The notes below the pieces were generated by a model. That model made no database searches, was not told where the DNA came from, and saw only the letters and a program-made list of their open reading frames with translations. Shown here in pieces: positions 34,209-36,231 of a stretch of 64,000 bases of DNA (the stretch's first letter is position 1; each line of letters opens with the position of its first letter). The position numbers and the translations under genes are program-made. Source of the DNA: Methylocystis sp. H62 (lineage in GTDB: Bacteria > Pseudomonadota > Alphaproteobacteria > Rhizobiales > Beijerinckiaceae); NCBI RefSeq assembly GCF_015709515.1, contig NZ_JADNQZ010000053.1, positions 62,001-126,000 on the forward strand. Direction: 5' to 3'.

Positions 34209-35018
34209 CTAAGGAAGCGGCTTTCGGGGAACAAGATGCATGACGCGCGCAAGCCGGCGCTCGGTGAGAAAGGCCAAACTGAACAGCTGCAGGAAGTTTT
34301 CCGCCTCGATCAGTTCGAGGCCGATGGATTTCGGCGTCAGAACCTTTCGCGTGCGAAAGATGATGTCCCAGATCGAAAGGACAATTCCATAATTGCTGTC
34401 GTGCTCGCTGCGCAGCGTCGAGTGGTGGGCGCGGTGCAGAGACGGCGTGATGATGAAATAGGACAGAATCCTCTCCCCGGGAATCGCGATGTTGGCGTGG
34501 TGGAACAGCACGAAGAACATGCGCGTCACTTCGCATAACACCACGACATACGCCGGCGCGCCGATGACGACGGCGCAGACGCATTTCACGACGACCTCCA
34601 GCAGTTGATCGAAGACGTGGAAACGCAGCCCGGTCGTGACGTGAAAGCTCTTGTCGCTGTGATGAATCTTGTGAAACAGCCAGAGCGCTTCGGATTTGTG
34701 TCCCAGATAGTGCCACGCATACACCGCCAGATCGAACAACACGAAGCTTGCGATCCATTTCAACGGCGCGTCAGGCAGGCTCGATAGCAGGCCATAGCTC
34801 GAATAATTCGAAGCGACGACGAGCAAGCTGGAAACGGACAAGAGATTCATGATGACGTTGTTGATCAGGAAAGCGGAGGTGTTGGTGGAAAATGACGCCT
34901 TCAGCCCCGCGCCCGCGAATTTCTTGTAAGGACGGAATTTTTCGATGACGAGCAGGATCGCGAAAAAACCGAATACGGCGATAAGCAACAGGTTCTCGAT
35001 ATGTGGCGGAGCGCTCAT
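34209..35018 (-). CDS. Sterol desaturase / fatty acid hydroxylase family protein
   Basis: A 269-aa integral membrane di-iron oxygenase. The histidine boxes are WHYLGHK (HxxxH), FHKIHHSD (HxxHH) and HRAHHS (HxxHH), with further His between, the pattern for metal binding. Four hydrophobic segments surround them, starting with LLLIAVFGFFAILLVIE. GAGG precedes the ATG. Known members hydroxylate or desaturate sterols, carotenoids, hopanoids or fatty acids; the substrate here is not evident from neighbours. Confidence 0.92.
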   Translation of the reverse strand: MSAPPHIENLLLIAVFGFFAILLVIEKFRPYKKFAGAGLKASFSTNTSAFLINNVIMNLLSVSSLLVVASNYSSYGLLSSLPDAPLKWIASFVLFDLAVYAWHYLGHKSEALWLFHKIHHSDKSFHVTTGLRFHVFDQLLEVVVKCVCAVVIGAPAYVVVLCEVTRMFFVLFHHANIAIPGERILSYFIITPSLHRAHHSTLRSEHDSNYGIVLSIWDIIFRTRKVLTPKSIGLELIEAENFLQLFSLAFLTERRLARVMHLVPRKPLP

Positions 35019-35238
35019 CGCCGACCTCGCTGGTTTGGGATGGGCCGTTTCAAGGCGCGCGGCGACCGCGGCCCAACCAATGAAATAGGCGCCCTAGCCC
35101 CCTGAAGACCGCCAATGTTCGCCAAACTGCCGCCGTTTTTAGACGGCGCGGGGGAAGTCGCCTTGATCGCCCTTGTCAGTCGCCGGAAAACGCTTAGCTC
35201 GTCTGAGGGAGCCCATCATCTTTCAGGAAGGGCGTCGC

Positions 35239-35766
35239 ATGTTGGGACTTAACGTAAATCTCAAAGGAATGAGCCCGCCCCGCCCGCCAGCCGTCGGCGG
35301 CATTGCAAGAACCGTAATTTCACGGCCGCGCGATTTTGCTTTCGACTTTGTCGCGCGCGATTTTTTCCAGAATTATCCGCGATGGTGTCCGCAAGTGGTG
35401 GAGCTGGAGCCGAATGGAAGCGCGCCCGTGCGCGTCGGGATGACGGCGCGTCAAGTCACGATGGAACGGGGCATACGCAGCGAGAGCACATTCGAGATCG
35501 TGAACCTCGAACGCCCGCGCCTTCTCGCACTGGAAGGAATTTCCGAACCCTTCTCGTCCTCCTACGAATTCGAGTGCGAGTCGCAAGGAACCACGCTGAT
35601 TTTCACCTTCGAATTGCGCGAGATCGAGTTGTCGATGCGACCCTTCGTCAAATTGATTCGCGCCGCATTGCAGGACGGCGCAGAGCAGATCGTCGAGAAC
35701 CTTCGGGCGCTTATCGAAACCGGCGCGACTTCAGCCCAACCCGCCGGCGCATCACAATCAAACTGA
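35239..35766 (+). CDS. SRPBCC (START/polyketide cyclase-like) family protein
   Basis: A 175-aa protein with a ligand-binding helix-grip fold: TVISRPRDFAFDFVARDFFQNYPRWCPQVV in two halves at the N-terminus, then beta-strand stretches (RVGMTARQVTMERG, STFEIVNLERPRLLALEG, TTLIFTFELREIEL) and a long C-terminal helix (IRAALQDGAEQIVENLRALIE). The start at 35239 has AGGAAGGG; a TTG at 35173 would add 22 residues. A LOV photoreceptor gene follows 12 nt after the stop, with its ribosome-binding site overlapping this stop codon, so the two form an operon. The ligand is unknown. Confidence 0.82.
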   Translation: MLGLNVNLKGMSPPRPPAVGGIARTVISRPRDFAFDFVARDFFQNYPRWCPQVVELEPNGSAPVRVGMTARQVTMERGIRSESTFEIVNLERPRLLALEGISEPFSSSYEFECESQGTTLIFTFELREIELSMRPFVKLIRAALQDGAEQIVENLRALIETGATSAQPAGASQSN

Positions 35767-35778
35767 GGTCAGCGAAAA

Positions 35779-36231
35779 ATGTTCGTCGTTCAGAAAGATG
35801 AAGGGATCATCCCGAAGATTTTGACGCAGATTCTCGATTCATGCGTCAACGGCGTCACGCTGGCGGACCCGGATCAACCCGACGCGCCGATCGTCTATGC
35901 GAACAAGGCCTTCGAAAGCATGACCGGCTATGGCCAGGAGGAGATCATCGGCCGCAACTGCCGCTTTCTGCAAGGCGACGACCGGGATCAGGAGGGGCTC
36001 GCGCCGCTGCGGGAGGCCATGCGCAAGCATCACCACATCGAAGTGACGCTGCGCAATTATCGGAAAAATGGCGAGTTGTTCTTCAACAAACTCAACATCA
36101 CGCCGCTGCTCGATAGTCGCGGCGCGGTGATCTACTATCTCGGCGTCCAATATGACGTGACCGAGCTTGTTCGCGCGGAAGCGGAAATCAACAGGCTGGA
36201 CCAGCGACTGAAGGCGCTGGAGAAGGCGTAA
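35779..36231 (+). CDS. Short LOV-domain (PAS) photoreceptor protein
   Basis: A 150-aa protein made almost only of one LOV domain. The flavin-adduct motif GRNCRFLQG is present with Cys61, followed by [19 protein letters not shown], whose two Asn and later Gln ([10 protein letters not shown]) contact FMN in known LOV proteins. A short C-terminal helix ([18 protein letters not shown]) can form a coiled-coil dimer. There is no kinase, DNA-binding or GGDEF output domain. GAGG about 10 nt before the ATG overlaps the stop of the SRPBCC gene, so translation is coupled. Blue-light sensing is established for this motif; the output must be through partner proteins, the SRPBCC protein being the obvious candidate. 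Confidence 0.9.

Follow-up and report, generated by a model that had tools for sequence, protein, structure and literature searches.

A short LOV photoreceptor gene of Methylocystis is linked to genes for an SRPBCC helix-grip protein and a membrane hydroxylase in two bacterial classes

Short LOV proteins are blue-light photoreceptors without an output domain, and their action is described as poorly explored in the available parts of the study of the McLOV proteins (El-Arab et al. 2015, PMC4416707). According to the same parts of that study, McLOV proteins bind flavin, bleach at 450 nm and are dimers in the dark state, with adduct lifetimes of 38 s for McLOVn and 80/180 s for McLOVr; Methylocystis also has an AraC-HTH-LOV factor (LOV-TF), and competitive dimerisation between this factor and the short LOV was proposed. 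The work covers the LOV protein alone and the LOV-TF, and no mention of the gene context of McLOV was found in the text available to us, whereas the gene context is the focus here. A second system comes from Pseudomonas mendocina, where, as far as the accessible text of PMC9758184 goes, a short LOV (PmSB-LOV) is encoded beside its effector PmlR2, a class II LitR protein, binds this effector in the light and signals by contact.

The window analyzed here is a stretch of 64,000 nucleotides from Methylocystis sp. H62, for which a preliminary description had proposed three open reading frames whose positions and strands we recovered unchanged. A membrane di-iron fatty-acid-hydroxylase/sterol-desaturase-type protein of 269 aa (FAH; 34209..35018, minus strand) is separated by a divergent intergenic region of 220 bp (35019..35238), which probably holds the promoters of both arms, from the gene of an SRPBCC / Polyketide_cyc2 helix-grip protein of 175 aa (35239..35766, plus strand), which is followed by the gene of a short LOV protein of 150 aa (35779..36231, plus strand). 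The letters after the SRPBCC stop codon are TGAGGTCAGCGAAAAATG; a GAGG Shine-Dalgarno-like element (35765..35768, plus strand) overlaps this stop, as had been described, and ends 10 nt before the ATG of the LOV gene. The LOV gene starts 12 nt after the end of the SRPBCC gene, and both are in one frame. On the 3′ side of the module, inspection by eye assigns the ORFs to rpsO and pnp. An alignment of the upstream regions of the window and seven other Methylocystis loci contained only short conserved blocks and no clear operator upstream of the SRPBCC gene.

Using five Methylocystis relatives for each gene, dN/dS values were 0.10–0.36 for SRPBCC, 0.08–0.25 for LOV and 0.07–0.16 for FAH, which indicates from the codon comparison that the three genes are under purifying selection. 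Because of these values (0.07–0.36 overall) and because two bacterial classes share the arrangement, the locus is more than a chance assembly. A plasmid-borne pair was rejected as an explanation, since SRPBCC gave no plasmid match and the plasmid matches of LOV and FAH were all less than 60% identical; a defence system was rejected for want of a PADLOC match.

The membrane hydroxylase that had been noted upstream and divergent is borne out by a PF04116 match (1.1e-24; 87.8 bits, cut-off 31) and by three His boxes of the forms HX3H, HX2HH and HX2HH (H103YLGH, H116KIHH and H195RAHH), which we take to be di-iron sites. FAH shares such membrane di-iron His boxes with the OlsE-type ornithine-lipid hydroxylases and PF04116 but differs from OlsE in scoring 82.2 bits against the 475 bits needed for model NF052566. 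No convincing solved relative of SRPBCC or FAH was found by sequence.

Cys22 and Cys61 are both present in the LOV protein, the latter in the adduct-cysteine motif GXNCRFLQ, so that the flavin-adduct cysteine previously described as intact is indeed seen in the sequence. The reading that it has no output domain also holds: Pfam found PAS-type models only in the 150 aa, the best being PAS_9 at 3.7e-23, and the C terminus is a predicted helix in the read-through SRPBCC-LOV model described below. The nearest solved relatives are titled 'Sensory box protein', the first being 3sw1, which we take to be the P. putida short LOV PpSB1-LOV. M. rosea SV97 encodes a homologue with 95% identity to the window LOV; this strain has two short LOVs (L012, the 95% identical one, and L082), one of which is McLOVr. 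As far as can be compared with the available text of PMC4416707, the window LOV shares with the McLOV proteins Pro12, Asp20, Cys22 (in the 21–24 turn), Thr27, Cys61 and Gln124. By its sequence, the window LOV is thus a member of the already characterized McLOV family, and the photocycle has been published for its relatives McLOVn and McLOVr. The earlier suggestion of an undescribed system therefore falls for the kind of LOV protein, which is known from PMC4416707, and stands for the gene context, of which we found no description, including in the accessible parts of that paper.

Recurrence of the linkage was evaluated in 151 gammaproteobacterial genomes of the family of Methylobacter tundripaludum (G200), presumably a methanotroph family. 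SRPBCC was found at 106 places in 82 of these genomes, close LOVs at 95 places in 78 genomes (E <= 1e-45, best 25 candidates per genome), and module-type FAH at 86 places in 80 genomes, the 86 being matches of at least 285 bits plus two cut, lower-scoring pieces (G331:C416 and G350:C69), with all other matches at or below 268 bits. An SRPBCC gene lay within 700 nt on the same strand for 92 of the 95 LOVs, and LOV was the downstream gene in 92/92 pairs (best 25 candidates per genome). The three LOVs without SRPBCC were one at a contig end (G340) and two second copies adjoining a BLUF-type gene (G328 and G337). Module-type FAH was at most 1.5 kb from SRPBCC or LOV in 84/86 cases, the other two being pieces, one of them at a contig start. 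The complete SRPBCC-LOV-FAH triple was present at 80 places in 76/151 genomes. Together with its presence in Methylocystis, this answers the call in the preliminary description for a survey of other genomes: the pair recurs, with the hydroxylase.

At 14 of the 106 SRPBCC places there was no counted LOV. Seven of these are explained by a contig break (G250), a short piece (G255), weak matches (G242:C146 and G246) or broken LOV frames (G235, G331:C416 and G309:C14). The seven true departures have MsrPQ alone (G218, G282 and G350), FAH alone (G228, G254 and G309:C9) or, in G229, an FAD oxidoreductase and a COQ10-like gene beside SRPBCC and no LOV.

At three loci, a second short LOV gene without SRPBCC is followed by the gene of a protein that carries a BLUF domain at its C terminus (L197:3583-4960, L190:3757-5124 and L200:1592-2961, all on the minus strand; BLUF assigned by Pfam on L197 and L190 and by similarity on L200), which places two different blue-light receptor chemistries side by side. 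A protein that by eye looks photolyase-related is encoded upstream of SRPBCC in G250 (L202:365-1885, plus strand).

Among 199 genomes of the window's own family, SRPBCC occurs at nine places in six of the ten own-genus genomes, the window's own included; the other four own-genus genomes gave no SRPBCC match. Clear matches in this sample were confined to the own genus; a weak match in another genus (G044, E 8.6e-4) contains an internal stop and was excluded from the count. LOV follows SRPBCC directly at 7/9 of the own-genus places, and FAH is divergent beside it at 8/9. At L041, SRPBCC has no adjacent LOV, no FAH was seen and there is a diverged LOV at a distance of about 5.5 kb. At L046/L178, there is no LOV, and SRPBCC and a HATPase_c kinase-type domain form one fusion protein, with a divergent FAH gene beside it. 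The fusion protein (L178:5033-6256, minus strand) has no Pfam HisKA match, and the usual phospho-accepting His reads Leu by eye. In the closest named relative (L009:5414-5988), the SRPBCC frame is split into two ORFs, owing either to an assembly error or to a broken gene. In Methylocystis suflitae NLS-7 (L036:5941-6302), a 33-residue match to the FAH C terminus (82%) lies beside a diverged partial LOV match, and these pieces are possibly the remnant of a lost module.

In wider samples that included the known carriers, SRPBCC was found (E <= 1e-10) in 9/369 genomes of the class of G200 and in 3/398 genomes of the own-phylum sample. A distribution restricted to methanotrophs was not borne out: PF02461 was not found in the SRPBCC carriers G515, G625, G720, G623, G202 and G199, of which G515, G625, G202 and G199 have LOV. 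In G515, G625 and G202, LOV follows SRPBCC, and no FAH was found in the stretch examined. The PF02461 test was positive in 18/30 genomes and is limited by incomplete assemblies, having missed also the own-genus G057 and G164 and others. The SRPBCC-LOV pair is therefore centred on methanotrophs and perhaps not limited to them.

Among 53 chosen loci, the Methylocystis order is FAH divergent from SRPBCC-LOV, whereas the gammaproteobacterial order is SRPBCC-LOV-FAH in line, with one divergent exception seen (G331:C204). That the gene order is mostly unlike between the classes argues for a selected linkage, and the linkage of SRPBCC, LOV and FAH is real and strong.

The commonest neighbours outside the module, among 44 SRPBCC-anchored loci of which L016 and L179 are the same place, were an MsrP-type protein (17 loci, one being the weak case L193) and MsrQ (14 loci); the MsrP-type cluster alone spans both classes among the 25 largest neighbour clusters listed. 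The MsrPQ system repairs oxidised periplasmic methionine. It was found that MsrP follows FAH at 12 of 20 gammaproteobacterial loci with enough sequence (the duplicate L179 and the cut L015, L167 and L175 excluded; 4/20 without an intact LOV), and that MsrQ comes next in 10 of these 12, the other two being cut. The genes after FAH in L016 score 438.5 bits for MsrP (cut-off 207) and 172.7 bits for MsrQ (cut-off 130) with the NCBIfam models, whereas the window module has no adjacent MsrPQ. No true MsrP was found at the Methylocystis loci among the 53; the neighbour in L193 (Methylocystis) was rejected as MsrP, being convergent, 24% identical and at 71/207 bits.

A second neighbourhood theme is represented by L185, with the order FAD oxidoreductase - SRPBCC - LOV - COQ10/RatA-like, and L015 joins both themes as FAD oxidoreductase - SRPBCC - LOV - COQ10-like - FAH. 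The COQ10-like protein matches PF03364 and scores 132.5/258 bits with the RatA model, and the FAD oxidoreductase matches PF07992 without a more specific name. COQ10 is a quinone chaperone. In the available text of PMC8238504, MsrQ is called a quinone-binding subunit. The lipid module suggested in the preliminary description is upheld in its link to a hydroxylase; as a label, membrane redox or oxidative damage is equally good, given the presence in relatives of MsrPQ or of the FAD oxidoreductase with its COQ10-like companion.

These neighbours also permit a reading in which LOV, SRPBCC, FAH and MsrPQ form a co-expressed light/oxidative-stress operon, needed together and without direct contact, the target of LOV being unlinked. 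The frequent position of MsrP after FAH fits this, and operon membership alone could account for the linkage. However, SRPBCC-LOV is a very tight pair with an invariant order, it occurs without FAH and MsrPQ, and SRPBCC is itself joined to a HATPase domain in L178, so that we regard an operon without contact as rather doubtful.

The pattern of gene loss distinguishes the three genes. Pairs of SRPBCC and LOV without FAH were seen at L160, L161, L165, L185 and L188; SRPBCC and FAH without LOV at L169, L172 and L173, and with broken LOV frames at L167, L170 and L175; FAH and LOV without SRPBCC were seen only at the contig end in G340. SRPBCC is therefore the hub gene, which stays when LOV or FAH is missing. 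LOV is dispensable at L169, L172 and L173 and at L171, L174 and L176, where SRPBCC paralogues stand with MsrPQ alone. Partial correlations of gene distances gave 0.54 for SRPBCC-LOV, 0.64 for SRPBCC-FAH and 0.24 for LOV-FAH over 55 triples, and 0.43, 0.63 and 0.31, respectively, over the 41 gammaproteobacterial triples; these values are suggestive of SRPBCC as hub, and unequal distance noise can yield the same pattern. Outside the LOV module, the gene of a distant SRPBCC relative stands immediately ahead of one for an NAD(P)-binding/DUF2867 protein (L164:3444-5411, minus strand).

The SRPBCC protein matches PF10604 (2.3e-11; 44.6 bits, cut-off 27.4) and falls below the cut-off of the Rv0910-type toxin model NF047960 (20/100 bits). 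Its AF2 model (pLDDT 89.5, pTM 0.80) has a helix-grip fold. The top matches by Z score were PYR/PYL receptors, at up to 18.5 over 146 residues; the bacterial helix-grip proteins MSMEG_0129, SMU.440 and TcmN matched at Z 16.4–17.1, and the Foldseek ranking by E-value placed the onion lachrymatory-factor synthase first. Because other helix-grip proteins are nearly as good and the Foldseek top differs, the structural matches of the model indicate a fold and not a family or function. The PYR/PYL/RCAR abscisic-acid receptors, whose protein contacts are controlled by a small molecule, share this helix-grip fold but differ in being plant proteins and in having 9–17% identity to SRPBCC.

Their likeness nevertheless raises the reading that SRPBCC itself signals as a PYR/PYL-like lipid or quinone sensor, with LOV as co-sensor in the same complex and an unlinked kinase, phosphatase or regulator as output. 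The SRPBCC-HATPase fusion would fit, as would L173, where SRPBCC-FAH is followed by a PAS-SpoIIE phosphatase gene, and L169, which has a similar ORF. However, one fusion and two neighbouring loci are all that was seen, the other helix-grip proteins match almost equally, and fold likeness at such identity shows no function; we consider a signalling SRPBCC quite improbable. The multi-PAS + SpoIIE phosphatase genes of L169:1506-3758 and L173:1661-3916 (both on the minus strand) lie directly after FAH at loci with SRPBCC-FAH and no LOV, the assignment having been made by Pfam on L173 and by similarity on L169.

A contact between SRPBCC and LOV is suggested by an AF2 model of the read-through SRPBCC-LOV chain (pLDDT 83.8, pTM 0.73, from 17 paired rows and with no negative control), because this pTM exceeds the value of about 0.45 that is our own rough estimate for two domains without fixed orientation. 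No natural SRPBCC-LOV fusion was found in the loci examined. The conserved adjacency of a short LOV to its partner, as in PmSB-LOV/PmlR2, is found for 92/95 of the close LOVs in the gammaproteobacterial sample. In terms of the accessible text of PMC9758184, the partners differ: PmlR2 is a DNA-binding repressor, whereas SRPBCC is a helix-grip protein in which no DNA-binding domain was found. No MerR/LitR regulator was seen by eye among the 25 largest neighbour clusters listed, and the conserved LOV partner is SRPBCC.

The published proposal offers a different partner. On that account, the short LOV would heterodimerise with the LOV domain of the AraC/HTH LOV-TF and tune the light response, as VVD does with WC-1, and SRPBCC and FAH would be incidental or targets of the LOV-TF. 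In the available text of PMC4416707, both LOV types are shown to form dimers and competitive dimerisation is proposed; the window genome has a LOV-TF, whose LOV domain is 63% identical to the short LOV; and in our LOV tree the LOV-TFs and the Methylocystis short LOVs fall together (98/85), within a short-LOV group set apart from other LOVs (100/94), although the outgroup branches of this tree are long and drew a program warning. However, a LOV-TF query matched 78/151 gammaproteobacterial genomes (E <= 1e-40, best 10 candidates per genome) from residue 310 or later in every case, in open frames of at most 186 aa without the AraC part, whereas HTH_18 spans residues 250–327 of the query. A LOV-TF was thus found in 0/78 of the matching genomes among the best 10 candidates per genome and is not present wherever the short LOV is; in this sample, the short LOV appears to work without it and nearly always with SRPBCC. 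Conversely, G135 has a LOV-TF but gave no match to SRPBCC, and its listed matches include no short LOV.

Because no LOV-TF was seen in the 151 gammaproteobacterial genomes among the best 10 candidates per genome, competitive dimerisation is unlikely to be general, and as the main explanation of the locus we hold it to be unlikely. The LOV tree and the matching of the query only at its LOV end indicate that the partnership with SRPBCC extends more widely than the LOV-TF and probably predates it. Inside Methylocystis, both may hold. The earlier remark that the partner of short LOV proteins is usually unknown needs amending: the SRPBCC candidate gains from the conserved pairing, and the LOV-TF had already been proposed as a partner in the accessible part of PMC4416707.

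The LOV-TF of the window genome (L002:1492-2958, minus strand, contig C59) combines DJ-1/PfpI, HTH_18 and PAS_9 domains in 488 aa, the McLOV-TF architecture given in the available text of PMC4416707. It adjoins and converges with a gene matching the autoinducer synthase model PF00765 at 49 bits (L002:408-1064, plus strand), and a link between light sensing and quorum sensing is possible.

We prefer the reading that the short LOV has SRPBCC as its direct partner and that the two belong to a light-responsive lipid/quinone-redox module of the membrane, to which, judging from the comparisons of sequences and loci, we give about an even chance. Blue light would form the Cys61-flavin adduct, as published for the relatives, and alter the LOV dimer. 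The altered dimer would change the seating of LOV on SRPBCC, whose helix-grip pocket would take up or release a hydrophobic ligand, either a lipid of the membrane or a quinone; the physical contact, the ligand and the direction of control are what we infer here. SRPBCC would then serve or report to membrane enzymes, mostly the co-encoded FAH and often then MsrPQ, and in some relatives the FAD oxidoreductase and COQ10-like protein, so that in methanotrophs the module would match the lipid/quinone chemistry of the membrane to light and photo-oxidative stress. More specifically, and more tentatively, blue light could gate ligand exchange by SRPBCC and so the supply of substrate or electrons to FAH and MsrPQ, which would give methanotrophs a fast post-translational response of the membrane to light.

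A full-text search of the open-licence literature found no description of SRPBCC together with a LOV domain or short LOV; for LOV domains in the methanotroph literature, it found only papers with titles on unrelated topics, and for a LOV domain with a sterol desaturase, only a fungal-pigment review. The finding is the gene context. It provides an orphan sensor with a candidate partner whose conservation spans two bacterial classes, and a test would need no more than two small soluble proteins. If the more tentative reading is true, LOV would act on a START-like carrier and not on DNA-binding proteins, kinases or nucleotide enzymes. For optogenetics, a carrier of lipids or quinones under LOV control would be a new type of output. 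According to the available parts of PMC7474682 and PMC12211021, an inhibition of methane oxidation by light has been suggested for lakes, and one of the two also doubts the size of the effect. If half of the sampled methanotroph-family genomes carry a membrane module that senses light, this would offer a molecular handle on the inhibition, and the module is a hint that methane-eating bacteria may adjust their cell membrane to light.
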